IMG/VR virus record: IMGVR_UViG_3300028840_003635 | Coordinates: 1-58,885 of that record | Length of the DNA stretch: 58,885 bases | Direction: 5' to 3' (one strand) | From: a virus | In this document: positions 1,506-56,250 of the stretch, in pieces | Layout of the letters: each line of letters starts with the position of its first letter | Position numbering within the stretch: the first letter of the stretch is position 1 | Notes under the pieces: generated by a model | Seen by the model: only the letters and a program-made list of their open reading frames with translations | Told to the model about the DNA's origin: nothing | Database searches by the model: none | Position numbers and translations under genes: made by a program

Positions 1506-1522
1506 TGGCATGTAACTTGCAA
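1506..1522 (+). promoter_or_regulatory. Sigma-54 promoter of the early operon
   Basis: TGGCATGTAACTTGCAA: GG at 1507-1508 and GC at 1519-1520 with exactly 10 bp between, matching the -24/-12 consensus. It lies 53 bp before the start of the first gene of the operon that runs from 1573 to 10102. Confidence 0.8.
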
Positions 1523-1572
1523 TATCTATAAGTAGTAAGCAGTAATTATCATCAACAGAGCAGGAGAGGATC

Positions 1573-1860
1573 ATGGGATTTCATTATGATATGACAATAG
1601 AGGACGTTAATGCAGACAAGAACACCGGAGATCCTGATTGTATGAAATATGGGTTTGACGGGGAATGTTCTGACAAGTGCATAGAGGATCATGAAATATG
1701 TTGTTCTTTATGCGAGAGAGTTTTTAAGGATGCTAACGGCAATCCTTTATGTTCCGAGATATGCGATGATGAAGATAAGAGGAACGCAGGGGTTGTGATA
1801 GACAGAGAAGAGAAGATTTGCATTTGGTGTGCAATGAGAATAGGGAGGGTGGAGATATGA
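1573..1860 (+). CDS. Cysteine-rich small protein
   Basis: 95 residues with ATG behind CAGGAGAGG. At least ten cysteines, including CCSLC and a C-terminal CIWC pair, point to zinc binding. First gene behind the sigma-54 promoter at 1506; it overlaps the next start (ATGA). No family recognised. Confidence 0.7.
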   Translation: MGFHYDMTIEDVNADKNTGDPDCMKYGFDGECSDKCIEDHEICCSLCERVFKDANGNPLCSEICDDEDKRNAGVVIDREEKICIWCAMRIGRVEI

Positions 1861-2060
1861 GCAGTTACTTTAAGGATTATGATGAAGTGTTTGAATCTTT
1901 AGACACTTTAAAAAAGTTGTGTCCAGATGTTGAAGCAGAGGCGAGACATGATCATGCGATGTTTATAAGGATAGAACATGGATGGGGCTTGTTGTTTGGA
2001 CCATACGATGTTTACAGATTTGTTGAGGGGTATAACATTGGAAAGAGGATGTATAAATGA
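1857..2060 (+). CDS. Hypothetical protein, 67 aa
   Basis: ATG 1857 is chosen because it overlaps the previous stop and follows GGAGGGTGGAG. Acidic N-terminal half, aromatic C-terminal half with a GPYDVYRF stretch. It overlaps the SWIM-domain gene by 4 bp, so the three small genes are translationally coupled. Function unknown. Confidence 0.65.
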   Translation: MSSYFKDYDEVFESLDTLKKLCPDVEAEARHDHAMFIRIEHGWGLLFGPYDVYRFVEGYNIGKRMYK

Positions 2061-2284
2061 ACGCATGGACAAACGATGACGGTTCTTTTTCTGTTAGTAG
2101 TTCGCAGGGCAGGGGTACCTACCATGTTTCTATAACCAGGAGTGCAAAATCATGCTCTTGTCCTGCGTATCTTTATGGCAGAGGTAAGGACTGCAAGCAT
2201 ATAAGGTTGGTATTGGATAAAATAAACAGGGGTGTGTTTGCTTATCAGGATGAGGTTGATTCTGATGGTGGCATACCTTTTTGA
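2057..2284 (+). CDS. SWIM zinc-finger protein
   Basis: 75 residues carrying CSCPAYLYGRGKDCKHI, the CxC...CxH pattern of SWIM domains, which bind DNA or proteins through zinc. In phages such small SWIM proteins often sit beside recombination genes, as here: the next two larger genes look like an annealing protein and a RecB-like nuclease. Confidence 0.75.
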   Translation: MNAWTNDDGSFSVSSSQGRGTYHVSITRSAKSCSCPAYLYGRGKDCKHIRLVLDKINRGVFAYQDEVDSDGGIPF

Positions 2285-2297
2285 AAGGAGCAACAAA

Positions 2298-3020
2298 ATG
2301 GCTAAATTACCAGAAAAACCAGCACAGAAGGAAATAACGGAAGATGCTTCAGAAAAAGAGGAGGTTTCAGCAGATGTTGAAACAGAAGAAAATAATGAAA
2401 CTGTTGTAGAAAATGGGGAGACCTCTCTTACGGTTAAGGATGTGATGGAAATTGAGGAGTTTTCTTCAGAAAGGGCATTAAAAAACCTTGAAGCGAGAAT
2501 GGACTACATGGAACAGTCTAGAAGGCTTGTTTTAAAGAAGCTAAAAAAGGCTAAGTCTTGGATAAAGTATGAGAACAAAAAAGCAGGAACGGTATCTTAT
2601 AGGTTGCGAAAAGGTGCTGTTAGTAAAATGCTGACTCCGTTTGGGATAAATTCGAGAATTATATCTGTAACTCAAACAGAGAAGCCTGATGGGTCTGTAG
2701 ATTATCAGGCGATAGCAGAGATGTCGTTTAGTGCTTTTCCAGATTATTTTTTACAGAGGTCAGGAACGGTGAATTCAACGGAGGTGTTTTACGAATCGCA
2801 GGTAAAAGCAGACCAGAAGTATGGGTCTAAAAAGTTTGGAGAGGGTTCATCTGTTCCGAGAAACTTATCCCAAAATTGCAAACAGCAGGCTGTAACAAGG
2901 GCGATGACAAACACTTTTTCTGCGATAGTTGGTATTGAGGATATTGACAACGAAGAAATGCAAGAGGCAGGGATAGATTATACTAAGATTCTATCACCTT
3001 ATGGCAAATCAGAAAGATAA
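2298..3020 (+). CDS. Putative single-strand annealing (recombination) protein
   Basis: 240 residues from ATG 2298, 6 bp after AAAGGAG. The first 55 residues are acidic and probably disordered. The rest is a compact domain with a basic stretch (KKLKKAKSWIKYENKK) and a conserved-looking NLSQNCKQQAVTRAMTNTFS helix. I place it with phage annealing proteins by context (SWIM protein before, PD-(D/E)XK nuclease and SSB after) and by the RNLSQ..A.TRA helix reminiscent of such families; it is not a recognisable RecT or Erf. It may represent a divergent group. Confidence 0.45.
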   Translation: MAKLPEKPAQKEITEDASEKEEVSADVETEENNETVVENGETSLTVKDVMEIEEFSSERALKNLEARMDYMEQSRRLVLKKLKKAKSWIKYENKKAGTVSYRLRKGAVSKMLTPFGINSRIISVTQTEKPDGSVDYQAIAEMSFSAFPDYFLQRSGTVNSTEVFYESQVKADQKYGSKKFGEGSSVPRNLSQNCKQQAVTRAMTNTFSAIVGIEDIDNEEMQEAGIDYTKILSPYGKSER

Positions 3021-3049
3021 CCGAGATTAAGTTTTAAGGAGAAATAACG

Positions 3050-3277
3050 ATGGCAAATAAAACATGTCCATTATTTAAGGCTGCCCTGTTAGGCAATTCT
3101 AACTTAAAAAGAGAATACATAGATTCAGACGATTTTTATTTTGCTTGCGAGTGTACCAAAGAAGAATGTGCTATGTGGACACCTAGAGAATGTGGGTATA
3201 TAGGATGGTCAAACTCAGACCTAACAGGGGCAGTTCATTTAGTCGCAGAGACATTAGAAAAAATGAGGAGCAAATAA
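3050..3277 (+). CDS. Cysteine-rich small protein
   Basis: 75 residues, ATG behind AAGGAG. Cysteines form a CPLF...CECTKEEC...C pattern like a small iron-sulfur or zinc site. Lies between the annealing-protein and nuclease genes. Function unknown. Confidence 0.65.
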   Translation: MANKTCPLFKAALLGNSNLKREYIDSDDFYFACECTKEECAMWTPRECGYIGWSNSDLTGAVHLVAETLEKMRSK

Positions 3278-3288
3278 AGGAGAGAAAA

Positions 3289-5289: not shown

Positions 5290-5647
5290 TATAAACAAGG
5301 TAATAGTAGCGGGAAACTTAACAAAAGATCCAGAGCTAAAGGACGTGGGAAGCACAAAGTTATGCAATCTCAGCATAGCAATTAACGAGAATTATAAAAA
5401 GGGTGATGAATGGATTGAAAGCGTGTTGTATTTGAATGATGTACCCGTATGGGGCAAAAGTGCGGAGTATGTTGCTGGCAATATGAAAAAGGGAGATCCT
5501 GTTCTTATCGAGGGGAAGTTAAAACTAAACCAGTGGGAGGATAATTCGGGAGAAAAAAGGTCTAAATTGACAGTTCAGTCGATAAAGGCACACAATTTGC
5601 AAGTAAAATATAATAAGGATGAAGATGATGGCGGAACATTCTATTAA
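5282..5647 (+). CDS. ssb: Single-stranded DNA-binding protein
   Basis: 121 residues from ATG 5282, 6 bp after AAAGGAG. The OB-fold start INKVIVAGNLTKDPELK and the later VLYLNDVPVWGKSAEYV strand and KGDPVLIEGKL motif are hallmarks of bacterial/phage SSB. The C-terminus ends DEDDGGTFY, acidic but lacking the usual DDxPF tip for partner binding. It coats single strands during replication and recombination. Confidence 0.9.
   Translation: MVSINKVIVAGNLTKDPELKDVGSTKLCNLSIAINENYKKGDEWIESVLYLNDVPVWGKSAEYVAGNMKKGDPVLIEGKLKLNQWEDNSGEKRSKLTVQSIKAHNLQVKYNKDEDDGGTFY
5586..5602 (+). promoter_or_regulatory. Sigma-54-like match inside ssb, before rusA
   Basis: AGGCACACAATTTGCAA has GG and GC exactly 10 bp apart and lies 27 bp before the rusA start. 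It may be an internal promoter, but it overlaps codons for KAHNLQV and could be chance. Confidence 0.35.
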
Positions 5648-6095
5648 ATTTACAGTATATGGGAACGCAGTAGCAAAGAAAGCTCCTAAGATGTTTTTAA
5701 ATCCTAAAACCAAAAGACCTATGGCTTTTAAGGATAAAAGCACAAGGGACTGGGAAAACGCTATCAGGACTGTAGCACAGGATCATGTTCCGAAAAATCT
5801 ACTTGATGGTCCTTTGTATGCAAAGGTAACTTTTCATATTTTAAGACCAAAGTCTAAACCAAAGAAGGTGTTGTATCCAGATACAAAGCCAGATCTTGAC
5901 AACCTTGAGAAGAGTTTGTTTGATGCTCTTGAGGGGTTGATATTTGTTAATGATTCTCGGATAGTAGAAAAGCATATAGAGAAGGTATATGGAGATCCTC
6001 CCAGGGTAGACATAGAGGTGGGAGAGAAGGCAAAGCCTTTGGAGAAGATCGAGAAGATACAGAAAAGGCTAGATGAACTAATCAGGGAAGGATAA
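5628..6095 (+). CDS. rusA: RusA-like Holliday junction resolvase
   Basis: 155 residues from ATG 5628, 8 bp after AAGGA (ATG 5619 and 5625 are also in frame). PDLDNLEKSLFDALEGLIFVNDSRIV-type signature around residues 85-110 (KPDLDN, DAL.G, NDSRI) contains the metal-binding aspartates of RusA. It would cleave four-way junctions produced by phage recombination or replication before packaging. Confidence 0.85.
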   Translation: MAEHSIKFTVYGNAVAKKAPKMFLNPKTKRPMAFKDKSTRDWENAIRTVAQDHVPKNLLDGPLYAKVTFHILRPKSKPKKVLYPDTKPDLDNLEKSLFDALEGLIFVNDSRIVEKHIEKVYGDPPRVDIEVGEKAKPLEKIEKIQKRLDELIREG

Positions 6096-12773: not shown

Positions 12774-13271
12774 TTATTCTCCTTTATACACTTTCATTAA
12801 TTTTTTCTTGTCAGCACCTTCGATATACCTTGCAAAATAATAACACCACCCGGCATCCTTGCTGGTAATAACGATCTCCTGTAGCCTCTTGATGTCTGCA
12901 CCAGCGACATCTATTGCAAAACAATAACACCACCCGGCATCTTTGCTGGCAAGTACCACTTCCTGTAATCTCTCAATGTCTGCACCTTCGATATGCTTTG
13001 CAAAATAGCAACACTGCTCAGCATCCTTGCTGGTAAGTACTATCTCTTGTAACTCTTTAACTTCAGGATGGCTTATATCTAAGTCGTACTCTCCTATCGC
13101 CCATAGAACGTCTTCTATACCACAGATCTCATAAATTTGCATTAGCGAAATAGGGGTGGTCATTCCATATTTTTCGATCCCTCCAAGACCTTTTATGAGA
13201 TGTTTATATCTGCCCTTACACACTCCATGCTCTTTTAATGTCTCAAGACTAATTATTTCTGGATGTTCCAT
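12774..13271 (-). CDS. Repeat protein with LQEIV..SKDA..C..FA..GAD units
   Basis: 165 residues. From about residue 65 there are three full units of some 33 residues (SKDAEQCCYFAKHIEGAD, SKDAGWCYCFAIDVAGAD, SKDAGWCYYFARYIEGAD), each preceded by a LQEIV-type helix and followed by a partial fourth. Similar helical repeats occur in uncharacterised phage and plasmid proteins. Likely a helical scaffold for protein binding. ATG behind AAAGGAGAGTAAATC. Confidence 0.65.
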   Translation of the reverse strand: MEHPEIISLETLKEHGVCKGRYKHLIKGLGGIEKYGMTTPISLMQIYEICGIEDVLWAIGEYDLDISHPEVKELQEIVLTSKDAEQCCYFAKHIEGADIERLQEVVLASKDAGWCYCFAIDVAGADIKRLQEIVITSKDAGWCYYFARYIEGADKKKLMKVYKGE

Positions 13272-18174: not shown

Positions 18175-18191
18175 ATGCAATTCCCGTGCCA
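18175..18191 (-). promoter_or_regulatory. Sigma-54 promoter of the leftward operon
   Basis: On the minus strand TGGCACGGGAATTGCAT: GG at 18190-18189 and GC at 18178-18177, exactly 10 bp between. 48 bp upstream of the first gene of the operon that ends at 12341. Confidence 0.85.
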
Positions 18192-18262
18192 TTATACCAT
18201 TTCATAGATTTGCATAAAACCTTGATAATAAAGGCTCTATCTCTTGAAACAATACTATTATA

Positions 18263-18290
18263 AAAGTGTAACCTTAAAAACTGTAACCTA
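18263..18290 (-). promoter_or_regulatory. Candidate activator sites for the leftward sigma-54 promoter
   Basis: AAGTGTAACCTT (18263-18274) and ACTGTAACCTAT (18279-18290) lie 72-100 bp upstream of the promoter at 18191, mirroring the arrangement at 1396-1506. Confidence 0.4.
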
Positions 18291-18552: not shown

Positions 18553-18644
18553 AAAACCCTATAAACAAAGAGTTAATCATACTACGCAATAAGTTGCATA
18601 CTATGCAAATAATTGCATATTAGTACAAAACCCTATAAACAAAG
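18553..18644. repeat. 18-bp direct repeats
   Basis: AAAACCCTATAAACAAAG occurs at 18553-18570 and 18627-18644, interleaved with the GCAA/TTGC palindromes. Confidence 0.8.
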
Positions 18645-18690
18645 GATTTATGGCAACATAACAGCAAATAACTATGCAAATAATTGCATA
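18583..18690. promoter_or_regulatory. Three GCAA-N4-TTGC palindromes (operator or iteron-like)
   Basis: TACGCAATAAGTTGCATA (18583-18600), CTATGCAAATAATTGCATA (18601-18619) and an identical copy at 18672-18690. Two sites abut head to tail. They could bind a repressor or an initiator; no cognate protein is identified. Confidence 0.6.
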
Positions 18691-18820: not shown

Positions 18821-18826
18821 ATGAAT

Positions 18827-19300
18827 ATGGATAGAAATTCTTATACATTTTCGGAAGCGCAGAACAAAGCCATTGAACTATTTATGCAGGGAAAGAATAA
18901 AACTGATGTAGCTACCGCTTGTGAAGTTTCCAGAGCTACCGTTTATAATTGGCTAGAAATACCACAGTTTCGACATGCTATCGAAAAGGAGAGAGGAGAT
19001 TTATTTAAGAGAGCACAGGCGCAGCTTAAACATCTGTTTCATACCGGTATAAAGACAGCAGAGAGAGTACTGAATGATCCTGATAATAAGTCCTTTGCTC
19101 GTGTCTTTGAAATTATATGTAAAGCTGTCGGAGTCCTTGACGAAAAACCAAATGTTAATATCATAGTACTCAATGCTGTCGATCCTTTTGAATCCATCCA
19201 AGAGTTACAAAAGCATATCATGGACAGGGTGCCACTATTAACTGAAGAACAAAAGCAGAAATTGATCATTGATGACAGTGATACAGGGGAGGTCTCGTAG
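18827..19300 (+). CDS. terS: Terminase small subunit
   Basis: 157 residues from ATG 18827 (ATG 18821 is two codons earlier). Residues about 10-45 form a helix-turn-helix (NKTDVATACEVSRATVYNWLE), followed by a helical region (HLFHTGIKTAERVLNDPDNK) typical of small terminase subunits of the phBC6A51 kind. It recognises the packaging site and loads the large subunit. The large subunit is separated by 1.6 kb of small genes. Confidence 0.75.
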   Translation: MDRNSYTFSEAQNKAIELFMQGKNKTDVATACEVSRATVYNWLEIPQFRHAIEKERGDLFKRAQAQLKHLFHTGIKTAERVLNDPDNKSFARVFEIICKAVGVLDEKPNVNIIVLNAVDPFESIQELQKHIMDRVPLLTEEQKQKLIIDDSDTGEVS

Positions 19301-19360: not shown

Positions 19361-19570
19361 ATGCAGGTGCAGACAATATTTTTTTTACATTTTCCCGTGA
19401 GGGTGCGACGTATTGGAGTAATTGTGGTTTCGTTTAGAATGTCTGATATGTCAACAGGATCCTTTACTTATGGTTTGGGACTAGCCGAGGCTTTTCTATC
19501 TTTGAGCCAGTTAGAATCAAAGGTAGTTTTTTACATTTTCTGTGGAATTGGCATGGAAGTTGCATTGTAA
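19361..19570 (+). CDS. Doubtful hydrophobic protein, 69 aa
   Basis: Frame with ATG 19361 after a weak AAGG. The C-terminal part contains hydrophobic stretches, but the last codons coincide with the -24/-12 element. Probably not a gene. Confidence 0.2.
   Translation: MQVQTIFFLHFPVRVRRIGVIVVSFRMSDMSTGSFTYGLGLAEAFLSLSQLESKVVFYIFCGIGMEVAL
19549..19565 (+). promoter_or_regulatory. Sigma-54 promoter of the late operon
   Basis: TGGCATGGAAGTTGCAT: GG 19550-19551, GC 19562-19563, 10 bp between. 77 bp before the start of the first gene of the packaging/head/tail operon. Confidence 0.75.
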
Positions 19571-20959: not shown

Positions 20960-22462
20960 TTGGACAACAAACTTTTTGGGTTGAGAATAGTATCTAAAGC
21001 GGTAGTTGGATCTAATCTCTTGCAGGAGAAAAAGACCAATTACAAGAAGGCAATCCCTTCTTTTATGTATGATTCTGAGACTGGTGGGTTGATAAAGTTA
21101 TGCTGGATGCATGAAGAGTGGCATGATTTGTTAGATACCAGTAATTTTTCTTTTATTGCAGCGCCGAGGGATCATGGCAAGTCTGTTCAGGTGGTAACTG
21201 GTCGGGTAGCCTGCGAGATTGGCAACAATCCTAACATCAGGATTAAAATAATATCTGGAACGGAAGATCTGGCTAAAAAGAGGGTAAAGGCTATCAAGGA
21301 TATTATCGAGAACAGTCCTGAGTATCACGAATTGTATGGCAAGTTGAAACCTGCAAAGGCTTCTAACTGGGGAGATTTGAGCTTTACGGTAAAGAGAAAT
21401 ATTCCTGGTATCAAGGAGTCTACGTTAGAGGCTTTTGGTATTATGGGCACTGCTACTGGTGACAGAGCCGACTTAGTGGTCTGCGATGATATTGTTACTT
21501 TTGAGAACTCTATCGGTAAACCTAGCCAGAGAATTATGATAAAGAAGAAATTCTGGGGTGATATTGTCAGGTGGGTGGTCCCAAAGGTGGGGAGGTTATG
21601 GTATATCTGCACAATCTGGCATCAGGACGATTTATCTTCTGAAATTATGGGGAATATACATAAAAATCGTTTTAATATGAAATTTTATGCTATTAACGAG
21701 AATTGTGATCCTATTTGGGAGGAAAGGTATGACAAAAAGTATTTATTGACGTTGAGGGCTGAAAATCCTGCTGAATTTGACAGGGCTTACAGGAATATGC
21801 CTATTTCCGATGAAGATACCATTTTTAAGAGGGGATGGGTGCAAAATTCCATAAGAATTGACGATACTGAGGTGCTTTTTAACGAAAATACGAAGATTTA
21901 TGTAGGAGTTGACCTTGCTATATCTAAGAAAACTACTGCTGATTATACGGTAATAATGGTATTAGGTATTGATAGCGAGACAGACAAGATGTTTCCTATA
22001 GAGATGGTCCGTAAACAGGGGATGAGTTCGCCGGAAACGGCAAGAGCAGTGTTAAATATAGTGAAAAAGTGGAGACCTTCTCTTGTTTATGTTGAAAACA
22101 ATGCTTATCAGTCTAGTTTATTGGAATGGATGGAGGATTTACAGGATACAGAAGAATGGAAGTCTAACAAGTGGATAATTCCTAATGTTATGGGGTTCAG
22201 GACTGGATCTCAAAAGCATGATATGTTTGAGGGGCTTCCTTCTATGGCTAACGAGTTTCATAACGGATTATGGACTATTTGCAACCATAAAAACCCGTTA
22301 ATAGAGGGTGAGTCTCCATGTGATAACGATAATTGCATGTGCAAGTTAATAGATGAGCTTATTCATTATCCTTTTGGGACAAAGGATGATTGTGTGATGA
22401 GTTTATGGCTTGCGAGGATGGCAGCAAAGAAGGATTTAAGTTTCTTTTTTACTTATGCATAG
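20960..22462 (+). CDS. terL: Terminase large subunit
   Basis: 500 residues, TTG start after AGGAGGATAAT. Walker A-like AAPRDHGKS at 67-75, Walker B ADLVVCDDI near 170, and a C-terminal RNase H-like nuclease with YVGVDLAISKKTTADY, VYVENNAYQ and GTKDDCVMSLWLA, supplying the metal-binding acids. ATP-driven motor and nuclease that packages the genome into the prohead. Domain order and length match gp17-type terminases. Confidence 0.92.
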   Translation: MDNKLFGLRIVSKAVVGSNLLQEKKTNYKKAIPSFMYDSETGGLIKLCWMHEEWHDLLDTSNFSFIAAPRDHGKSVQVVTGRVACEIGNNPNIRIKIISGTEDLAKKRVKAIKDIIENSPEYHELYGKLKPAKASNWGDLSFTVKRNIPGIKESTLEAFGIMGTATGDRADLVVCDDIVTFENSIGKPSQRIMIKKKFWGDIVRWVVPKVGRLWYICTIWHQDDLSSEIMGNIHKNRFNMKFYAINENCDPIWEERYDKKYLLTLRAENPAEFDRAYRNMPISDEDTIFKRGWVQNSIRIDDTEVLFNENTKIYVGVDLAISKKTTADYTVIMVLGIDSETDKMFPIEMVRKQGMSSPETARAVLNIVKKWRPSLVYVENNAYQSSLLEWMEDLQDTEEWKSNKWIIPNVMGFRTGSQKHDMFEGLPSMANEFHNGLWTICNHKNPLIEGESPCDNDNCMCKLIDELIHYPFGTKDDCVMSLWLARMAAKKDLSFFFTYA

Positions 22463-23631: not shown

Positions 23632-25350
23632 ATGGGCATATTAGACGTATTTAAAAGAAAAGGTGGCAAAGAAGGACATCCTCCTGTAGAGCTAACTGCT
23701 TTTGAGAAAGCGAAAAGCGGAGCTGTTGTCTCTGGAATAGAGCCTGGACCTGCTCAGTGGTTTACCTACTTTACTGGTAAATCTGGAACACAGAGAGCCG
23801 GCAAGATGCTTACCTGGGATGAAATGCGAACTTTTTATTTAATGGTTCCAGCCTTATCTTCCAGCATAAACAGCATAGCGAGAGAAATATCAAATATGCA
23901 GTGGTCGATAGTGCCAAGAGAGCAGGGGATGAAGGTTCCTTTAAAGGTTATCAGGGATGCAACGCTATTTTTCCAGAATCCTAATTCTATGAAGCGTCCT
24001 TTTTCTCAGTTTATATACGTATTAACAAAAGGTTTGGGGTTATACTCCAGAAGTGCTATAGAGAACGCATTTGATCGGAATGACAATCTTGTGGAGATTT
24101 ATGCAAGGGATGCCAGCACAATAGTGCCATTGGTTGACGAGCATGGGATAATTCATGGATACAAGCAGATAATATATGGTGGTGGAGGGCATACAAGGCA
24201 TACGGTTAATTTTACAACAGATCAGCTTGTTTTTATAGAATACAACCCTGATGATTATGCTTTTGGTGGAGCACCTATAATTGACGGGTTGATAAATGTT
24301 TGCAAGGCTATAATAAATTCTATTTCTTATATTGCCAAGAATTTAGATTATAACGAAATACCTCCTGGTTTAGCGTGGGCTAAGGGATGGACGCAGAAGC
24401 AGGCTGATATGTTTGCAAAGAGCATGAAGGCAAAACGTGATGGAGCCAGAGTAGATTTCGAGTTTCCTATAATTGGTGGAGTTGACGAGTTTCACTGGGA
24501 GCAGTTCAAAAAGGATTCTAAGGAGACGAGGGAGCTTGAAAGTTTAAACAAGATGGAGAAGATAGTCCATCAGGCTTATGGGATTACTTCTGTGGAATCC
24601 GGAGAAGTTCAGGATGTCAACAGGGCTACGGCTTTAACTCAGATTACTATAGGTCAGTCAAAACTTATAAGACCTATGGTAGATTTACTTACTGACGAAA
24701 TAAATCAGGGAATTATCTGGAGTCATATTGATGACAGGATAAAGATAAAAGCAGAGCCTAATGTTCACAGGACAAGAGAGAAGATAATTCAGGAGAATGA
24801 AACTTTAATACCTCTGGGTTTAAGAACAGTAAATGAAGGCAGAGAGTTGTTAGGGGAGTCTAAGCTAGACGGAGGAGATAACGCAGTATTTATAATAGGT
24901 GGAACATTGATAAAAGTTTCTGATTTAGATAAGGAGTCTGTAGAAGTAAATCCAATGAACGTAAATACAAACCAGCCGTCCAAAAATCAGGCGGATAGTT
25001 CGAAGGTTGATGCTGATGTAAAGAAAATCTTTCAGGACAGAAAATATACTTTTTTAAAGAGCTATATAGGTGAATATTCAAGAGAAAAGGGCAACGTAAA
25101 AAACTCAGTCAATGAGACTGCAAACCATCTAAGGCAAAAGCTGTTTGATTATGATAAATCTAAGATGAATGTTAAGGAATTTTATAATATTATGTCAAAT
25201 GCCCTAAAAACACATCAGCATTTGTCTAAAAAAGGGTATTTAACAGAAAAGGAAGCGGAAGAAGATAGAAATGCGATAAGCGCAAGAATATCAAGGGCTT
25301 ACGATGAGTTTGCTTTTGATTTTATAAAAAACAAAGGAGAGAATAAATGA
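23632..25350 (+). CDS. Portal protein
   Basis: 572 residues. The WDEMRTFYLMVPALSSSINSI and REISNMQW start, and a long central region ending in helical stem segments, match HK97/SPP1-type portals; residues beyond 450 are a charged C-terminal extension. ATG 23632 lacks a clear ribosome site and follows the zinc-ribbon gene by 53 bp. It forms the dodecameric entry for DNA. Confidence 0.85.
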   Translation: MGILDVFKRKGGKEGHPPVELTAFEKAKSGAVVSGIEPGPAQWFTYFTGKSGTQRAGKMLTWDEMRTFYLMVPALSSSINSIAREISNMQWSIVPREQGMKVPLKVIRDATLFFQNPNSMKRPFSQFIYVLTKGLGLYSRSAIENAFDRNDNLVEIYARDASTIVPLVDEHGIIHGYKQIIYGGGGHTRHTVNFTTDQLVFIEYNPDDYAFGGAPIIDGLINVCKAIINSISYIAKNLDYNEIPPGLAWAKGWTQKQADMFAKSMKAKRDGARVDFEFPIIGGVDEFHWEQFKKDSKETRELESLNKMEKIVHQAYGITSVESGEVQDVNRATALTQITIGQSKLIRPMVDLLTDEINQGIIWSHIDDRIKIKAEPNVHRTREKIIQENETLIPLGLRTVNEGRELLGESKLDGGDNAVFIIGGTLIKVSDLDKESVEVNPMNVNTNQPSKNQADSSKVDADVKKIFQDRKYTFLKSYIGEYSREKGNVKNSVNETANHLRQKLFDYDKSKMNVKEFYNIMSNALKTHQHLSKKGYLTEKEAEEDRNAISARISRAYDEFAFDFIKNKGENK

Positions 25351-46008: not shown

Positions 46009-46025
46009 TGGCACAATATTTGCAT
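46009..46025 (+). promoter_or_regulatory. Sigma-54 promoter of the glycan cassette
   Basis: TGGCACAATATTTGCAT: GG 46010-46011, GC 46022-46023, 10 bp between. 53 bp before the first cassette gene. Confidence 0.85.
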
Positions 46026-47008: not shown

Positions 47009-47525
47009 GATAAAAAAGAGCGTGGAAATAAAAAAGAACGGACACCTGTGCTTCGACTTTGGGTGTGGAAAGAGTAAAAAGAAGGGGTATGTGGGAGTAG
47101 ACTGTCAAGATTTTGAATGTGTTGATATCGTGTCTGATGTAAATGGATTTAAAAATATACCAGGGAGTTCAGCTTGCAGAATTCATTCGTGCCATTTTAT
47201 AGAGCACCTAGGGCACGATGATGTATTTTTTGTTTTAAAGCAATGGATGAGAATACTTGAGAGTAGGGGGATTTTAACAATTTATTTCCCAGACATTAGC
47301 TTGGTTATACCAGAAACAAACATAAAAATTGCCATAAATCATGTGTGGGGTTCCAGAAAGGATCAATATGATTACCACAAGACATTCTGGACTGCCAGAT
47401 CGATGATGTTTATGTTGCAATATGTCGGGTATGCTAACGTAAGAACAATACCTTACTTTGGGAAGCTACATCCATACAAAGGAGACATGGCTTGGACTTC
47501 AGGAGTGGAAGGAATTAAAAAATGA
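47001..47525 (+). CDS. SAM-dependent methyltransferase (class I)
   Basis: 174 residues, GTG start, 8-bp overlap with the previous gene. FDFGCGKSKKKGYVGVD is motif I with its acidic partner; HSCHFIEHL is the motif typical of sugar/lipid methyltransferases (SxxxxEH). Likely O-methylates a glycan. Confidence 0.75.
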   Translation: MFKIKKSVEIKKNGHLCFDFGCGKSKKKGYVGVDCQDFECVDIVSDVNGFKNIPGSSACRIHSCHFIEHLGHDDVFFVLKQWMRILESRGILTIYFPDISLVIPETNIKIAINHVWGSRKDQYDYHKTFWTARSMMFMLQYVGYANVRTIPYFGKLHPYKGDMAWTSGVEGIKK

Positions 47526-48202
47526 TAAATAAACGACCTTTAAAATTTTACGTTGATAAAATAAAAAATAATGAAGTCTTTAGCTTTTCGAGATATGGAG
47601 ACGGTGAATGGATATATATGACCTGCCCTTCTGGCAGAACCAGAATAAATAAAGAAATGGACTACTTCCCAGAAGCAGCCGAATCTTTAAGAAAAACAAT
47701 TTTGTTTCCGAAAGCAAGTTCTTCTTATTTTTATGGGCTTCAAAGATTAGCTCTAAAGATGTTTGCTGACAAAATACCATCCACTATTGACTGGCATGGA
47801 AGTGATTTATTTCATCATGCTTCGATAAGTGGAGCATTGTCGCCCTTAATAGCTTCTATTGTTGAGAAAGATGTTGTTTTTGTTGGACCTAGGTATTTAA
47901 AAAATATAAATAGCATCATTCCTTACGTGGATTTTATAGAGATAGACGGTAAAAATTGTTATACGCAAATACATGATATATTAAAAAGAATAAAAGATAC
48001 AAAGAGAGAATCTGGCAATATGATATATAGTTTTTCTGCCGGTGCATTTACAAACATTATGATTTATAAGCTGTATGATGAGATGAAAAATAACTGGCTT
48101 ATAGATTTTGGATCGGTATGGGACCCTTATGTTAATCAAAACACAAGGGGTTATCATAAAAAAATGACCAGGGACTTAATAAGTATAAATACAGGAGGCT
48201 AG
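47522..48202 (+). CDS. GT-D fold glycosyltransferase
   Basis: 226 residues, 4-bp overlap. FSFSRYGDGEW near residue 20 is the RxGDGE signature of GT-D (GT-101-like) enzymes of streptococcal SRR-adhesin glycosylation. A Ser/Thr-glycan extending role fits the mucin-like protein upstream. Confidence 0.75.
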   Translation: MINKRPLKFYVDKIKNNEVFSFSRYGDGEWIYMTCPSGRTRINKEMDYFPEAAESLRKTILFPKASSSYFYGLQRLALKMFADKIPSTIDWHGSDLFHHASISGALSPLIASIVEKDVVFVGPRYLKNINSIIPYVDFIEIDGKNCYTQIHDILKRIKDTKRESGNMIYSFSAGAFTNIMIYKLYDEMKNNWLIDFGSVWDPYVNQNTRGYHKKMTRDLISINTGG

Positions 48203-48205
48203 TTT

Positions 48206-48898
48206 GTGGTAATATCTATAATTATTGCTCACTATGGAAACAGCAAATACCTAGAAGATTGTTTACTTTCGATAGAGCAAAACACATATATACCTCATGA
48301 GGTTATAACGGTCAACACCGAAAAACCCAGAATATCTGTGGCTGAGGCGTGGAACGAAGGGATAGAGTCGGCTACAGGGGAAATTGTTGTTATTTTAAAT
48401 GACGATACCCTAGTATCAGAATTTTGGTTGTCTAGGTTGTATTGGTATTTGCAGGCAATAGATAATGCTATGGTTTCGACCCCGTCTACATCTAAATGTG
48501 CAAGCATTATATATACGGAACTCTATGACAAAATGAAACCTGATGTAAAATCAACAGCAGATGTAAATAGATTTAACAAAATAGTGTCTAAATATTACGG
48601 TCTCTCATACAAAAAACTAGCAAGCCATGAAGTTACAGGGTTTTGTGCAATGTTTAGAAAGAAGGATTGGGAGTTAGCTGGTAAGTTTTACAAGGGGTTC
48701 AAATATGCTTATGGAGAAGAAAACGATTTTTTTGACAAGTTATCAAAAAAAAAGAAAGGTGTGTTTGTTTTAGCGAGCGGGGTGTATGTTCATCACTTCA
48801 AAGGGAAAACTACAGAGAGGGTAAAGGATTTAGACCTTATTGCATGTAAGGCATTATATGAAAGGAGAAGGCATGAGCGAAGAAAAAAAACAACATAA
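48206..48898 (+). CDS. Family 2 glycosyltransferase
   Basis: 230 residues, GTG start. GT-A fold: IIAHYGNSKYLEDCLLSI start, ATGEIVVILNDDTLVSEFW with the DDT metal site, GFCAMFRKKDWE and a C-terminal FDKL region. Overlaps the next gene by 26 bp. Confidence 0.8.
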   Translation: MVISIIIAHYGNSKYLEDCLLSIEQNTYIPHEVITVNTEKPRISVAEAWNEGIESATGEIVVILNDDTLVSEFWLSRLYWYLQAIDNAMVSTPSTSKCASIIYTELYDKMKPDVKSTADVNRFNKIVSKYYGLSYKKLASHEVTGFCAMFRKKDWELAGKFYKGFKYAYGEENDFFDKLSKKKKGVFVLASGVYVHHFKGKTTERVKDLDLIACKALYERRRHERRKKTT

Positions 48899-49442
48899 AA
48901 TAATAGTAGGTGGTATAGGAAGAACGGGTTCAACTGCTTTAATGTGTATTCTTTCTTATCTAGAGTTAGGGACTGGATTTGGGAAATATTCTTATCGAAA
49001 CGAATATATTAACAAACTATTTTTTCTTGAGGGCAGAGAAGAAGCCTATATATATAAAGAGAACGAAAACGCTGGACTTATTCCTGAAAGGTTTGATAAA
49101 TATATTGTAGATTATTTTATATTTTTACAGAGAGATATAAACAAGGCAGCAGCCAGCAGGGTTAGGAAACATCAAGAGGGTTACTGGATGGGGGGATTAA
49201 CAGCCGATACTGAATGGAAGCCTGAAAGACAAAATGCTATTTTATTAGGGAAATATAAATCTCTCAAGAGGTATTTAGAGAAGAGAGACGTCCCTGTGGT
49301 TGAAATAATTTACCCAGACTTTATAAAGGATGTTGATTATTTATATGAAAAATTGCTTTTGCCGTTTCCTTGCCTTGAAAAAGACAGGTTAAAAAAGGCT
49401 TTTGATTTAATAATCTATAAAGATACGGAGGGATATAAATGA
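48873..49442 (+). CDS. Sulfotransferase-like protein
   Basis: 189 residues; ATG 48873 follows AAAGGAGAAG. GGIGRTGSTAL at residues 12-22 is the PAPS-binding loop of sulfotransferases; later R and S residues would contact the 3'-phosphate. Could sulfate a glycan of the cassette. Confidence 0.65.
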   Translation: MSEEKKQHKIIVGGIGRTGSTALMCILSYLELGTGFGKYSYRNEYINKLFFLEGREEAYIYKENENAGLIPERFDKYIVDYFIFLQRDINKAAASRVRKHQEGYWMGGLTADTEWKPERQNAILLGKYKSLKRYLEKRDVPVVEIIYPDFIKDVDYLYEKLLLPFPCLEKDRLKKAFDLIIYKDTEGYK

Positions 49443-50062
49443 GAATAGCGGTATTAACTTGCGATAAGTATAATTTTTTGATTCCCTATTTCTGGCATTT
49501 TTTTAAAAAGAATTTTCCAGACAATCCGTATCCTGTAGACTTTGTAACTGAGACAGAGAGAATATATTTTGGGGACAATGTTTTCTATGGCGGGAAAAAT
49601 CTATGGTCAACTCTTTTGCAAAATTATCTAAAAACAGTAACAGATGACAAGATACTGATTTTATTTGATGATTACATGATTTATGGTGTAGATCTCAAAA
49701 AAACAAAGGAAGCGGAAAGTCTGTGCTGTGGGGAGGTAGGCTGTATAAATTTAATCAAAATGAATTGTGAAAAGGCTCTCGTTTATCCTGACGGGATGGA
49801 TGGATATCTTACCAAAGATTTTAACTCAGAGATAACTACCGGATGTCAGGCTACAATTTGGCAAAAAGATTATCTCAAGGAAGTTTATCCTGAAGGTAGA
49901 GATAGTTGGAAAGCAGAGACATACGGATACAGAAAAATGAAAACTCTGAACAAAAAGGTTTTATATTCAACCACTCCCATATTTTCTTATGTGCATGGTG
50001 GTTGCATGATAAAAGGCAATAAGGTCGATGCAGTATTTAAACAAATGGCGGAGAAATGGTAA
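49439..50062 (+). CDS. Glycosyltransferase-like protein, 207 aa
   Basis: 4-bp overlap with the previous gene. MRIAVLTCDKYNFL start and LILFDDYMIYG (DD metal site) resemble GT-A enzymes; ends with an EVYPEGRDSW..ET segment. Family not certain. Confidence 0.6.
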   Translation: MRIAVLTCDKYNFLIPYFWHFFKKNFPDNPYPVDFVTETERIYFGDNVFYGGKNLWSTLLQNYLKTVTDDKILILFDDYMIYGVDLKKTKEAESLCCGEVGCINLIKMNCEKALVYPDGMDGYLTKDFNSEITTGCQATIWQKDYLKEVYPEGRDSWKAETYGYRKMKTLNKKVLYSTTPIFSYVHGGCMIKGNKVDAVFKQMAEKW

Positions 50063-51147
50063 TGGAATGGACAGATGCATATAATCCTTTTAATAGTTTT
50101 AAAGTTTTAGTATGGTCTAAGCAGTTACAGAACCTTGCAAATGGGAAGATTCCTTTGCCCGTAACTGTAGATACAGATCCAACAACAAGATGCAATTATA
50201 ACTGCATATGGTGTAATGCTCAGAAATATAGAGCAAAAGGACAACATACCCTGTCCGAAGAGCAGTTAGATAACCTAGTAAATATATACTCTAAGATGGG
50301 AGTTAAATCTACTTGTATTGCAGGAGGTGGCGAACCCACTTTAAACCCGCACCTTGCAAACTTTATAACAAGTCTACATGTGAACAACATAGAGACAGGG
50401 ATAATAACAAACGGATCTTCGATGACGAAAGAACAATTAGTGTCTATTGCAGAAGGGTCAAGGTGGTGCGGATTCTCTGTAGACGCTGGTAATGCGGGGA
50501 CTTATGTTAAGGTTAAGGGAATAAAAGACAGAAAATATTTCAGGATAGTCATTAAAAACATAGAATCTCTGTGTAATTTGATTCAAAAGTTTAACCTGAA
50601 ACCTAAGTGTGAAGTTGCTTTTAAGTTTTTAGTATCCCCTGACAACATCAACAGCATATACGAAGCAACGAGAGTTGCCAGGGAATGTGGAGTAGACCAT
50701 TTCCATTTAAGACCTGCCTGTGTTGATAACTTAGAGTCTTTTATTGCTCACAAGAGGTATATGTTTCATAGCTATTTAGAGACGTTTTCTGTAGAGACTG
50801 AAAAGGCAAGGAGGCTGGAAACTAAGGACTTTAAAGTGTATGTTGTAAAGCATAAGTTTAACAATTTTTTAGGCAGAAAGGTGGGTTTTAAAAAATGCAG
50901 GGCAACTCCCCTGCTTGCAACATTCGGAGCTGATGGGTATTGCCATCTATGTTTTGACCTTCGGGGTAAAGAAGATTTTATTATGTGTAAACATGAAGAT
51001 ATCATGGATTTTTGGGGGAGTGATAGGCATATCGAGATGATTGACTCAATAGATCCTGAAAAGTGTCCGAGGTGCACCTTTGGAGCTTATAACGAAATTA
51101 TAGAGAAGGTTTTTATTGAGGACAAGATGTGCAAGAATTTTCCATAA
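50062..51147 (+). CDS. Radical SAM enzyme with SPASM-like end
   Basis: 361 residues from ATG 50062, 8 bp after GGAG, overlapping the previous stop. TRCNYNCIWCNAQ is the CxxxCxxC cluster site; GGGEPTLNP binds SAM. The C-terminal half has CRATPLL..., CHLC, C and CPRC cysteines for an auxiliary cluster. Typical substrates are peptides or sugars; in this setting it may modify a sugar or a virion protein. Confidence 0.8.
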   Translation: MEWTDAYNPFNSFKVLVWSKQLQNLANGKIPLPVTVDTDPTTRCNYNCIWCNAQKYRAKGQHTLSEEQLDNLVNIYSKMGVKSTCIAGGGEPTLNPHLANFITSLHVNNIETGIITNGSSMTKEQLVSIAEGSRWCGFSVDAGNAGTYVKVKGIKDRKYFRIVIKNIESLCNLIQKFNLKPKCEVAFKFLVSPDNINSIYEATRVARECGVDHFHLRPACVDNLESFIAHKRYMFHSYLETFSVETEKARRLETKDFKVYVVKHKFNNFLGRKVGFKKCRATPLLATFGADGYCHLCFDLRGKEDFIMCKHEDIMDFWGSDRHIEMIDSIDPEKCPRCTFGAYNEIIEKVFIEDKMCKNFP

Positions 51148-51159
51148 GGAGAACAAATA

Positions 51160-51909
51160 ATGAATAAAGTAGCAATAATGCTTCCTGTTTATAATGCAGA
51201 AAATACATTGCAAAGATGCATAGATAGCTTAAAAAATCAAACATATCAAGATTATGTTGTGATGGCACGAGATGATGGGTCTACAGATAGCAGCCTTAAG
51301 ATATTAAAGTCTAATGAGTCTGATAAGATAAAAGTGTTTAGCAATATCAAAAATTTAGGATGTGTCCTCAATAGAAACAAGATCTTAGAGGATTCTCTTG
51401 CAATAAAAGATGTAGCATATATAGCCATACAGGATGCTGATGATTGGAGTGAACCAAACAGAATAGAAAAACAGGTCGAGTTCTTAGAAAAAAACAAAGA
51501 ATATGGAGTTTGCGGGACATGGTATTACTGGCATGATGTTAAAGATAGAGGGCAGTCTATAAAAGCAATAAAGACATTAACAGAGGACGTTGAGATAAGG
51601 AGAATGCAGTATTTTGGTAGCCAGGCATGTCATGGAAGTTATGTTATCAGGAGAGAAGTATATAATGACGTTGGATTTTATGACCCCTATTTTGTTTGGA
51701 GCCATGACAACGACTGGCTAACCAGGTTGCTTTACGGAAAAAAATGGAAGGTATGTACAATCCCGGAGAACCTATATCATGTGTGGGTAACTGAATATAC
51801 TCACTCTAAAACAAACGAAAGAAATATTTATAAACAGAAGCAAAGGTATAAAAGGTATTGTGAATCTGTCGGAGTAAAATATGAAGAAAAATATTGGAGA
51901 AGGATATGA
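51160..51909 (+). CDS. Family 2 glycosyltransferase
   Basis: 249 residues after AAGGAGAACAAAT. MLPVYNAENTLQRCIDSLKNQ start, ARDDGSTDSSL and IQDADDWSEPNR (DAD metal site), then a late HDNDWLTRL: a complete GT2 enzyme. Confidence 0.85.
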   Translation: MNKVAIMLPVYNAENTLQRCIDSLKNQTYQDYVVMARDDGSTDSSLKILKSNESDKIKVFSNIKNLGCVLNRNKILEDSLAIKDVAYIAIQDADDWSEPNRIEKQVEFLEKNKEYGVCGTWYYWHDVKDRGQSIKAIKTLTEDVEIRRMQYFGSQACHGSYVIRREVYNDVGFYDPYFVWSHDNDWLTRLLYGKKWKVCTIPENLYHVWVTEYTHSKTNERNIYKQKQRYKRYCESVGVKYEEKYWRRI

Positions 51910-52442
51910 TGGATACTTATGAAAATAAAATAAAGGGAATGATGGGAGCAAAGGATTTGATGTGGCTTTACAATATTGCTCAAAAAATGAACAGCATAGT
52001 GGAGATTGGCTGTTGGTCTGGCAAAAGTACTCATGCCTTATTGTCTGGGTGCAAGGGAACTGTATACGCTGTTGATCACTGGATTGGTAGTAGTTACAGC
52101 AACCTTACAAAAGGAGAAAAAGAAATTCACGATCTTGCTATAAGCGGAAAGGTGTTTGACAAGTTTAAGAGGAATGTTGGTCATTTTAAAAACTTAAAAA
52201 TTCATAAAATGGAAAGCATGAAGGCTGTAAAAAAATTCAAAAACAAGTCAGTTGATATGGTTTTTATAGATGGGTGTCATAGGTACAAAGATGTTTGCGA
52301 CGACATTAAAGGATGGTTACCTAAAACGAGAAAACTAATTTGCGGGCATGATATTGCTCATGGACCGGTAAAAAAAGCTGTTGATGAACTAATAGGAGAA
52401 CACGAACTAACAGAGCAAAATATATGGTTTAAGTGGTTGTGA
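51909..52442 (+). CDS. SAM-dependent methyltransferase (family 24 type)
   Basis: 177 residues; ATG 51909 (51906 also possible) after GGAGAAGG. IVEIGCWSGKSTHALL is motif I, VYAVDHW the acidic strand, VDMVFIDGCHRY the characteristic DGxH motif. Probably methylates a sugar hydroxyl. Confidence 0.75.
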   Translation: MDTYENKIKGMMGAKDLMWLYNIAQKMNSIVEIGCWSGKSTHALLSGCKGTVYAVDHWIGSSYSNLTKGEKEIHDLAISGKVFDKFKRNVGHFKNLKIHKMESMKAVKKFKNKSVDMVFIDGCHRYKDVCDDIKGWLPKTRKLICGHDIAHGPVKKAVDELIGEHELTEQNIWFKWL

Positions 52443-53182
52443 TGATGAAGCATTATTTATTAACAAGATATAATTGCGGATTATATTCTGGAGTGGGATT
52501 TGTTGATAAGAATGGGAATAGTATAAATTGCTATGCAGACAAATGGATGGAGCATAGGTTTAATTTATTCTCAAAAGTGTGTTTACCTTCTATAAAAAAT
52601 CAAACCAATCAGTCGTTCGACTGGATTGTTGTTTTGGACAAAAAAACTCCCAAGCATTTCAAGGAACAGCTTGAGGCTTGCAAAACAATACGAAAGTTTA
52701 AGATATTATACGACAAAGAGGAGGCAAGAACAGTCCCATTATCTTATATAAAAAACGATATTAAAGATGAGAATTGTATAACATCGAGAGTCGATAATGA
52801 TGATGCTCTTCACAAAAGGTTTATGGAGATTGTTGCTCAAGAAGCAGAAGATAATATGGGCAACGCCATTCTTTTTGCAAATGGGTGTTATTATGATGTA
52901 TCACAAAAAACCATGAGCCTTCACAGCTACCCGTTAAACCCTTTTATGTCTTTACCTAACAATCCAAGCAGAGACAAGTCTATTGTTTGGAGTGTAGATC
53001 ATGGTAGCATAGGAGACATATCTAAGGGTGTATTTACAATACACTGTCAACCTATGTGGCTATCTACTGTTCATTTATATAACAGGAAAAATACTTTAAG
53101 AGGTAAGATGGTGGAGATGCAATCTGAAATAGAAAACTACTTAAAAAACTTTTCTATAAACATGGAGCTTGAAATAATATGA
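52442..53182 (+). CDS. Putative rhamnosyltransferase-like glycosyltransferase
   Basis: 246 residues. HYLLTRYNCGLYSG start, LFSKVCLPSIKNQTNQSFDWIVVLD and SRVDNDDALH (DND metal site) match the family of putative rhamnosyltransferases. Start overlaps the previous stop, with only a weak ribosome site. Last gene of the cassette. Confidence 0.7.
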   Translation: MMKHYLLTRYNCGLYSGVGFVDKNGNSINCYADKWMEHRFNLFSKVCLPSIKNQTNQSFDWIVVLDKKTPKHFKEQLEACKTIRKFKILYDKEEARTVPLSYIKNDIKDENCITSRVDNDDALHKRFMEIVAQEAEDNMGNAILFANGCYYDVSQKTMSLHSYPLNPFMSLPNNPSRDKSIVWSVDHGSIGDISKGVFTIHCQPMWLSTVHLYNRKNTLRGKMVEMQSEIENYLKNFSINMELEII

Positions 53183-53664
53183 AAAAAAGAAAAAAGAATC
53201 CAACAGGGATAATGATTCATTGTTCTGATTCTTCTCATGGAGACAAAGACCTTATAAAGAAATGGCATACATCAGGGAATGGATGGGAAGATATTGGCTA
53301 CAACTGGATAATTACTAACGGATGTCGGTTAGCTCACAAGTATAAGAAGGAGAACGATGGAATAATAGAAAAGGGAAGGGACGTTAAATATGCAGGAGCA
53401 CATGCACGAGGGTATAATGAAAGCCATCTCGGTATATGCTTAGTTGGATCTCATCATTTTACACCAAAGCAGTTTGAATCCCTGTTTGAATTGTTAAGAA
53501 AATTGCAAACTTCTAATCTTGTAGATTATTTTATACCTGGATGTAAAATAAGGAATAAGAATATTTTAGGGCATTATGAAGTAAATAAAAACAAGACCTG
53601 TCCTAATATAGATATGGAATGGTTAAGACAACAAATAGATTTAAACCTGAACGAAAGGAAGTGA
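53179..53664 (+). CDS. N-acetylmuramoyl-L-alanine amidase (endolysin)
   Basis: 161 residues. IMIHCSDSSHG supplies the first zinc ligand, GAHARGYNESHLGICLVG the middle motif, and GHYEVNKNKTCPN the last His and Cys: the amidase_2/PGRP fold of T7 lysozyme. No separate wall-binding domain and no signal peptide, so a holin is needed. 4-bp overlap with the glycan cassette. Confidence 0.9.
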   Translation: MKKRKKNPTGIMIHCSDSSHGDKDLIKKWHTSGNGWEDIGYNWIITNGCRLAHKYKKENDGIIEKGRDVKYAGAHARGYNESHLGICLVGSHHFTPKQFESLFELLRKLQTSNLVDYFIPGCKIRNKNILGHYEVNKNKTCPNIDMEWLRQQIDLNLNERK

Positions 53665-53665
53665 A

Positions 53666-53992
53666 ATGCCTGATCCTATAGTAGCAACAGATCCGACAGC
53701 TTTTACTATGGCAAGTGGTACTCTTGGATACATAGTTTTGAGAACACTTTATGATATCAAGAAGTGGATGAATATGAGAAACGGGAATAATCCTCATCCT
53801 ACAAAAGAGTATGTTGACAGCATAATATCTAATCAGAGGACAGATTGTTCCGGCAAGATAGAATCTATTTTCAGGAAGGTTGATGCTATGAGGGACTCTC
53901 ACGAAAAGTTTGAGAAAACAATGATAGCAGACGTCTCTGTTTTAAAAAGCAATGTTGAAAGAATAGATAAAAAATTAGATAGAATGAGTTAG
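53666..53992 (+). CDS. Possible holin- or spanin-associated protein, 108 aa
   Basis: ATG after GAAAGGAAG. N-terminal moderately hydrophobic helix (FTMASGTLGYIVLRTLYDI), then a C-terminal coiled coil (IESIFRKVDAMRDSHEKFEK). Directly after the endolysin, so a lysis role is likely, but the membrane helix is weak. Confidence 0.5.
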   Translation: MPDPIVATDPTAFTMASGTLGYIVLRTLYDIKKWMNMRNGNNPHPTKEYVDSIISNQRTDCSGKIESIFRKVDAMRDSHEKFEKTMIADVSVLKSNVERIDKKLDRMS

Positions 53993-54007
53993 GCACGTAT
54001 CTTGCAT
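53991..54007 (+). promoter_or_regulatory. Sigma-54 promoter before the phosphoesterase gene
   Basis: AGGCACGTATCTTGCAT: GG 53992-53993, GC 54004-54005, 10 bp between. 49 bp before the GTG start at 54054. First base A instead of T. Confidence 0.75.
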
Positions 54008-55082: not shown

Positions 55083-55423
55083 GAGTCTATGTAGCAGGAG
55101 CATACAGTGCTGATAATGTAATAGATGTTTTAAACAACATAAGGGAGGGCATAAAAGCATCAGCAAAATTATTAAAGTTAGGACATGAACCTTTCTGTCC
55201 TTTTCTCGATTATCAATTTCAGTTCTTTGAGCCTGAATTAGAGGTTGAAGATTATTACAGGTATTCGATAGCATGGCTAGAGGTATCACAAGCCATGATA
55301 GTTCTTCCTGATTATGAAGAAAGTAAAGGCACTTTAAACGAAATATGGACAGCGAAAGAGCTAGAGATTCCAACATTTTACAGTATGCAGGATTTTTTGG
55401 AGTGGTGTGGACACAATGACTAA
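55079..55423 (+). CDS. DUF4406/nucleoside deoxyribosyltransferase-like protein
   Basis: 114 residues; ATG 55079 after GGAAGGAGG. MRVYVAGAYSADN start, LGHEPFCPFLDY and WLEVSQAMIVLPDYEESKGTLNE are the Rossmann-like features of this family, which resembles nucleoside 2-deoxyribosyltransferases. May act in nucleotide salvage. Confidence 0.7.
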   Translation: MRVYVAGAYSADNVIDVLNNIREGIKASAKLLKLGHEPFCPFLDYQFQFFEPELEVEDYYRYSIAWLEVSQAMIVLPDYEESKGTLNEIWTAKELEIPTFYSMQDFLEWCGHND

Positions 55424-55547
55424 AAGAGAAAAAGAAGATGTGCCTGTTATAATAACCTTTAGCAATAATGAAGTTACAATGACGGTTGAGTGGTATGACA
55501 GCATCGAGGATTACTTTAAGGCGATGGAGGAAGAACTAAATGAGTAA
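55416..55547 (+). CDS. Hypothetical protein, 43 aa
   Basis: 8-bp overlaps with the genes on both sides. Acidic, beta-hairpin-like (VPVIITFSNNEVTMTVEWYD). Function unknown. Confidence 0.5.
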   Translation: MTKREKEDVPVIITFSNNEVTMTVEWYDSIEDYFKAMEEELNE

Positions 55548-55791
55548 TGATAGAAAAGAAGATCCTTACTGGCATATCAAAAGAAGCAAAAGGTTTTGCA
55601 GGGATAAGCAGATAGAGAAGTATCAAAAGGAACTGGATCTATTATTATCAACTACAAAGTATCCAGGTAAAAATGTTCAGCAAGAAATTGACGACAGGAT
55701 AGATTTCCTGAAGTCTGAAATTATCAATATAAACAAGAAATATGAAAAGATATTAAAGGATATTGAGGAAGTGCATACAGAGCATACATAG
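55540..55791 (+). CDS. Coiled-coil protein, 83 aa
   Basis: Lys/Glu-rich helices with heptad spacing through most of its length. Last gene before the structured element at 55802. Function unknown. Confidence 0.6.
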   Translation: MSNDRKEDPYWHIKRSKRFCRDKQIEKYQKELDLLLSTTKYPGKNVQQEIDDRIDFLKSEIININKKYEKILKDIEEVHTEHT

Positions 55792-55801
55792 TACCTCCCT
55801 T

Positions 55802-55876
55802 GACCCGTCCTGAAAGTGTTCCTGTTTGATACAGGTTACACTTTAGGGTAGACTGATAACCTATCTGGGACGGGTC
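55802..55876 (+). ncRNA. Three-way-junction structure / 32-bp dyad
   Basis: Outer stem GACCCGTCC (55802-55810) pairs with GGACGGGTC (55868-55876). Inside lie a long hairpin AAAGTGT-N-CCTGT/ACAGG-NN-ACACTTT (55813-55844) and a short TAGG/CCTA hairpin. T-rich DNA follows by about 10 bp. It could be a cis-acting RNA for the gene at 55912, a terminator, or a DNA dyad bound by the activator proposed for the sigma-54 promoters, since its arms match AAGTGTAACCTGTA. The three are not exclusive. Confidence 0.5.
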
Positions 55877-55911
55877 TCCCTCCTTGTATTTTTTCAAGAA
55901 AAGGAGAAAAA

Positions 55912-56226
55912 ATGCCGTTAGATTATTTTCCGCGCTTAAAATTGGAGATTGAAGGGTTAAAGCACAGTGTTGTCCATGCGTTTTCTGATCGTTCAGAAGA
56001 AATAAAGAAATATGCCTGTAATGTCATCGATGCGTCTTTAAATCATTTAAAGGAAAAAGGGTTAGAACAGGTAATAATTAAATGTGTTGATGATTGTTTA
56101 AGGGATGCTATAGATTGCGGTATAAGGGATATTGTGAAAGACGAAGTTTCGGAATATTTTAGATCAGGGAAAGGTTCAGAATTGCTGGTTAATTCCATAA
56201 GAGAACATTTGAATAATTTTTCATAA
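55912..56226 (+). CDS. Hypothetical helical protein, 104 aa
   Basis: ATG after AAAAGGAGAAAAA. All helical, with an LKHSVVHAFSDRSEEIKKYA N-terminal helix. The structured element stands in its leader. Function unknown. Confidence 0.6.
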   Translation: MPLDYFPRLKLEIEGLKHSVVHAFSDRSEEIKKYACNVIDASLNHLKEKGLEQVIIKCVDDCLRDAIDCGIRDIVKDEVSEYFRSGKGSELLVNSIREHLNNFS

Positions 56227-56233
56227 AGTAAAC

Positions 56234-56250
56234 TGGCACGGTTATTGCAT
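56234..56250 (+). promoter_or_regulatory. Sigma-54 promoter before the DUF3987 gene
   Basis: TGGCACGGTTATTGCAT: GG 56235-56236, GC 56247-56248, 10 bp between. 49 bp before ATG 56297. Confidence 0.85.

Follow-up and report, generated by a model that had tools for sequence, protein, structure and literature searches.

Sigma-54-type promoters at the head of most gene blocks in a complete phage genome and in unrelated phages

Most phages take over the housekeeping polymerase. In the IMG/VR record IMGVR_UViG_3300028840_003635, a viral record 58,885 bases long, with 37% G+C, that was analysed over its full length and is called the window below, most units very probably stand under promoters that are read by the host sigma-54 polymerase and switched by a host activator of the NtrC/AtoC type. 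The sequence strongly supports the identity of these promoters as sigma-54, while polymerase binding, activation, dependence on the state of the host and the identity of activator and host are what we infer. The first 144 bases are identical to the last 144 (an exact terminal direct repeat, 1..144 = 58742-58885), so the record is a complete genome, terminally redundant or circular, of about 58.7 kb, and it encodes a phage terminase, portal, head protease and tape measure.

Six main sites carry this finding. On the plus strand, TGGCATGTAACTTGCA (1506..1521) is found at the head of the early/replication unit, 67 bp before an ATG at 1573 with a ribosome-binding site (RBS), and TGGCATGGAAGTTGCA (19549..19564) at the head of the packaging/virion unit, 91 bp before the ATG at 19640. 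Further along the same strand, TGGCACAATATTTGCA (46009..46024), an exact consensus, heads the glycan cassette 67 bp before the ATG at 46076; AGGCACGTATCTTGCA (53991..54006) heads the phosphoesterase unit 63 bp before the GTG at 54054; and TGGCACGGTTATTGCA (56234..56249), again an exact consensus, lies 63 bp before the ATG at 56297, heading the DUF3987 unit, whose first gene encodes a DUF3987 helicase/primase-like protein (56297..57952, plus strand). The leftward unit is headed on the minus strand by TGGCACGGGAATTGCA (18176..18191), also an exact consensus, 61 bp before the ATG at 18130. A first-pass annotation, made from the sequence, had reported these six sites with exact GG-N10-GC spacing, and each was recovered at the same coordinates. 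The spacing is exact in all six and TGGCAY-N5-TTGCA is exact in five; at 53991 the first T of the -24 element is replaced by A (AGGCAC).

Such sites occur far more often than expected. The exact pattern TGGCAY-N5-TTGCA is present five times in the window against 0.05 expected, with a maximum of one in any of 200 dinucleotide shuffles, and a weight matrix returned six matches scoring at least 16 against 0.32 expected (shuffle maximum, 3). This matrix was built, untrained, from the textbook consensus, and the exact-pattern test is independent of it; the comparison with shuffled sequence that the first-pass annotation had proposed leaves the strong sites far above the background. A background was also taken from about 1.43 Mb of viral and bacterial DNA retrieved for unrelated reasons, in which four matches of at least 16 were found in 696 kb and none in a further 731 kb, that is, about 0.16 per 59 kb against five in the window at that slightly different background setting. 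By taking the best match within 130 bp before every called gene, eight scores of at least 12 were obtained against 0.21 expected in shuffles, the next best being 8.3. These eight are the six main sites and two others, both upstream of genes, which the first-pass annotation had not listed: a weaker putative promoter, TGGCATAATCCTTGCG (726..741, plus strand), 98 bp before a methyltransferase gene (824-1339), and a possible one, AGGCACACAATTTGCA (5586..5601, plus strand), 39 bp before rusA and within the end of the SSB gene. Both probably belong to the sigma-54 set, the second being marginal because it overlaps coding sequence.

The sites are placed as promoters would be, upstream of and in sense with an RBS-bearing gene or operon. 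Five of the six main sites begin 61-67 bp before a start codon, for which P is about 6e-9, given that a random position has a called sense start 55-75 bp downstream with a probability of 0.016. From the last base of the -12 GC to the start codon the distances are 47, 49, 49, 53, 53 and 77 bp; the 48-53 bp previously given for five of the six was therefore right to within 1 bp. The assignment of the sites to the heads of the early, leftward, late, glycan-cassette, phosphoesterase and DUF3987 units also holds, all of them in sense, and the description of all six as intergenic applies to five, the site at 53991 overlapping the stop codon of the preceding gene by 2 bp. Intergenic sequence makes up 11% of the genome. 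Between 43 and 58.7 kb there are four gaps longer than 60 bp, and three of these hold a sigma-54 site.

Transcription from sigma-54 promoters depends on an activator ATPase, and the earlier statement that the phage has no gene for one stands for the complete genome: neither a Sigma54_activat domain (PF00158) nor a GAFTGA-type motif was found in it, and P-loops in plausible frames occur only in the terminase and the DUF3987 protein. An RpoN domain was likewise not found in the complete genome. Sigma-54 promoters at most gene blocks, taken together with the lack of an activator gene, suggest that a signal from the host probably controls when the phage can grow.

The same arrangement was met in other phages when IMG/VR was scanned for the sigma-54 consensus followed by an RBS and whole records were afterwards read. 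Many of the retrieved loci hold far more sites than the retrieving one; the retrieval of each of these phages rests on one or two sites, the others being independent of it. G559 (37 kb, 35% G+C), with five sites scoring at least 16 against 0.13 expected, is a distant relative of the window, sharing a terminase (36% identity, E 3e-79), a head protein (32%), a clamp-like protein, the terminase small subunit (terS) and others; G558, a second record of it, has four of these five sites, each displaced by the same offset. G553 (65 kb, 32% G+C) has ten sites against 0.1 expected, on one strand only and spread genome-wide. In G548 (70 kb, 46% G+C; terminase, portal) there are nine sites scoring at least 16 against 0.40, all intergenic and most of them 57-99 bp before starts, and in G550 (55 kb, 64% G+C; terminase, DNA polymerase, helicase) ten against 0.18. 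G548 and G550 have no detectable protein in common with the window, and G553 only weak ones. A reversed control pattern had no match in these phage records. Of 32 such records, 31 lack PF00158 and the other gives one weak match; RpoN was found in none of the 13 checked, and no activator gene was found in G559, G553, G548 or G550. Upstream of the sites of G548, AAAAAGAG is present in eight of nine regions, against at most three in shuffles, and a common element of this kind is expected of enhancer-dependent promoters. The dependence on a host activator proposed in the first-pass annotation is strongly supported by the sequence of the window and now also by a relative and by unrelated phages.

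In some IMG/VR records, sigma-54 consensus sites are densely packed, with 5-15 of them in a stretch of a few hundred bases, either in tandem or with sites on both strands: L277 at 5435-5933 (G551, sites about 25 bp apart), L242, L266 (G547), L261, L260, L210 and L201. Their sites are too close for ordinary promoters and may serve titration, act as decoys or have another function. In G548, a CobS/CobT-like pair follows a sigma-54 promoter (L300, 936-4357); the AAA+ protein of this pair belongs to the CbbQ/NorQ group and is no sigma-54 activator.

Within the window, a candidate enhancer lies in the 628 bp that separate the leftward promoter from terS (18821..19300, plus strand, divergent from the leftward unit). 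Three TATGCA-N6-TGCATA dyads are present there, at 18583, 18602 and 18673: a tandem pair, TATGCAATTATTTGCATA-G-TATGCAACTTATTGCGTA (18583..18619, minus strand), with a 19-bp period, and a third copy, TATGCAATTATTTGCATA (18673..18690, minus strand). In G559, three dyads at 21517, 21538 and 21608 adjoin the terS homologue and lie upstream of a sigma-54-like site, TGGTACAGGGATTGCA, at 21754. Across 4 Mb of loci this cluster was found only in the window, in G559 and in the second record of G559. AtoC, a sigma-54 activator of Escherichia coli, has a verified binding site made up of two inverted 20-bp sites (PMC3118216), and the sequence upstream of E. coli atoD, TATGCAGAAATTTGCACA-G-TGCGCAATTTTCTGCATA, has a 19-bp period equal to that of the pair in the window. 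The best match of the window to the AtoC site is the dyads, with 28 of 38 positions identical against a maximum of 26 in 60 shuffles. The dyad pair of G559 is 21 bp apart, so the ungapped 38-mer score is not raised, and, taken singly, its dyads agree with an AtoC half at 14-15 of 18 positions. In a whole-region alignment of the dyad region the promoters did not pair, and the dyads were compared directly instead. Taken together, these data are suggestive of the cluster at 18583-18690 being an enhancer for an AtoC-like host activator. Another sequence considered as an enhancer, GTGTAACCTG, occurs in few places and was unconvincing. The AT-rich divergent region at 18193-18820 also holds further repeat families (AAAACCCTATAAACAAAG, two copies; GATACACAATTACAA, two copies), and one of its sequences, TTTATAGGGTTTT, is also present in G559; the region is possibly a replication origin.

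Several other explanations of the sites have to be weighed. A chance or compositional origin could appeal to a loose pattern with two mismatches, which shows no excess in the window (24 observed, 20 expected), so that the signal is confined to the strong sites. These strong sites are at about 100 times expectation and fixed in position, and the shuffles together with the relatives rule out such an origin, whose probability we regard as negligible. It is also very improbable that the motif is an operator or promoter of a phage-encoded regulator that resembles sigma-54 by coincidence: many phage genes have no known function, yet no defining base departs from the textbook consensus, phages without detectable homology carry the same motif and the spacing to the start codons is that of promoters. 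More room is left for the sites being real sigma-54 promoters of an auxiliary kind, with sigma-70 carrying the basic programme and sigma-54 boosting it under some host conditions, which we consider unlikely on balance. In its favour are the long gene-dense units, which could be read through, and the sigma-70-like sites: TTGACA-17-TATAGT (526..554, plus strand) matches at 11 of 12 positions and is the main sign of a unit outside sigma-54, and further good sites lie at 10233 (TG-TATAAT) and 11607. The number of sigma-70-like sites in the window is no higher than in shuffled sequence, however, and the sigma-54 sites in three of the four longer gaps over 43-58.7 kb also speak for more than an auxiliary part. 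The sites at 526, 10233 and 11607 make an early sigma-70 phase possible, and the first-pass description of a genome run from sigma-54 thus applies to most unit heads, not to everything.

For the dyad cluster the balance is closer, since we give an even chance to its being a terS, replication-origin or repressor site unrelated to sigma-54. The cluster adjoins terS in both the window and G559, and other repeats are present in the 628-bp region; against this, its position in both phages is upstream and in sense relative to a sigma-54 promoter, and it resembles the AtoC enhancer in sequence and period. Beyond the sigma-70-like sites, other points weigh against the control of most units by sigma-54 and a host activator. 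The dyads could instead serve terminase binding, replication or repression. No upstream element is common to the eight sites of the window, and the dyads lie upstream of 18191 (perhaps also 19549) only, so the access of an activator to the other promoters is unexplained. Moreover, it was the motif that led to G559 and the other phages, so relatives lacking it would have been missed.

If most units are indeed under host sigma-54, the polymerase would form closed complexes at the sites and wait there until an NtrC/AtoC-type AAA+ activator of the host is switched on; only then would the main units start. A small sigma-70 phase (526, perhaps 10233) may come first. The cluster at 18583-18690 would be one candidate enhancer, with a sigma-54 promoter downstream of it in the window and in G559 alike. 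Development of the phage would be gated by the signal that switches the host activator, and infection would be tied to a physiological signal of the host, such as nitrogen, carbon or envelope stress. A wider proposal, which is put forward tentatively and which we think doubtful, is that several unrelated lineages of phages came independently to leave most of their transcription to host sigma-54. They would carry only the enhancer DNA for an NtrC/AtoC-type activator of the host, and lytic growth would be licensed by a nutritional or stress signal of the host, not by a phage regulator; in the lineage of the window, one conserved dyad cluster would serve promoters genome-wide.

Regarding relatives and host, no near DNA relative of the window was present in the phage collection, and queries with the terminase, portal, head protein and protease returned no close relatives among phages, IMG/VR and bacterial genomes; the protease alone gave matches of about 44% in otherwise unrelated phages. 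Distant terminase homologues in genomes of Zixibacteria and Planctomycetota were set aside, showing neither synteny nor a sigma-54 series. Genes about 60% identical to the methyltransferase at 10270 are present in subsurface metagenome-assembled genomes (Planctomycetota, Zixibacteria, WOR-3), of which RpoN was found in seven of the eight checked and activators in all eight. A host assignment from this gene was dropped, since a DNA methyltransferase is poor host evidence.

The remaining features concern the gene content. The terminase large subunit (20960..22462, plus strand), 36% identical to that of G559, is followed by the portal protein (23632..25350, plus strand). A pentapeptide-repeat protein (7433-8047) has a counterpart in G559 with 70% identity over 83 residues, against 25-47% for most other common proteins. 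An 835-aa protein with several glycosyltransferase domains (30002-32509) lies within the virion genes, and the glycan cassette (46076-53992), with its own sigma-54 promoter in front, comprises about 11 genes, including one for a radical SAM protein. Two tRNA genes are predicted by Rfam on the minus strand at 11727-11899, of which ARAGORN calls one, Gly-CCC. Three in-gene repeats with an 84-bp period are found in the leftward unit (12789-13051). Between two genes, at 55792-55911, lies a nested inverted repeat, GACCCGTCC..GTGT-CCTG..CAGG-ACAC..GGACGGGTC, with no Rfam match, possibly an RNA element or a terminator.

In comparison with known systems, phage-encoded switching (an own RNA polymerase, a sigma factor of the T4 gp55 type, lambda Q) likewise places one promoter class across many units; none of these was recognised among the scanned proteins of the window, and the promoter class is that of the host's sigma-54. 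The E. coli atoDAEB operon and the regulons of the NtrC/AtoC family share with the window a -24/-12 promoter and tandem TATGCA-N6-TGCA dyads with a 19-bp period, whereas in the window the arrangement is phage-borne, has no activator gene and has one dyad cluster for many promoters, at about 390 bp or more from them. The use of sigma-54 by phages, “although rare, is not unprecedented”, the development of YuA being strictly dependent on host sigma-54 (PMC5053324). The first-pass remark that phages with sigma-54 units are hardly described is therefore nearly right, with YuA as the precedent: the record of this Pseudomonas phage annotates three “-24/-12” promoters of high activity in the late region. 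YuA and M6 (Yuavirus, Mesyanzhinovviridae) thus resemble the window functionally, which also has several units with -24/-12 promoters and no RpoN gene of its own; no homology places the window in Yuavirus, its proteins having no match at E 1e-3 in the fetched 50 kb of YuA (58.7 kb) and of M6 (59.4 kb). New here are the distant relative G559 and the unrelated G553, G548 and G550 with their sigma-54 series, the phage use of sigma-54 itself being already known from YuA. The same layout in several unrelated phages would turn this single known case into a class recognisable from sequence. In YuA the sigma-54 promoters are confined to the late region, are weak fits to the consensus and have annotated sigma-70 promoters beside them, whereas the window has near-perfect sites at the heads of its early, leftward, late and accessory units.

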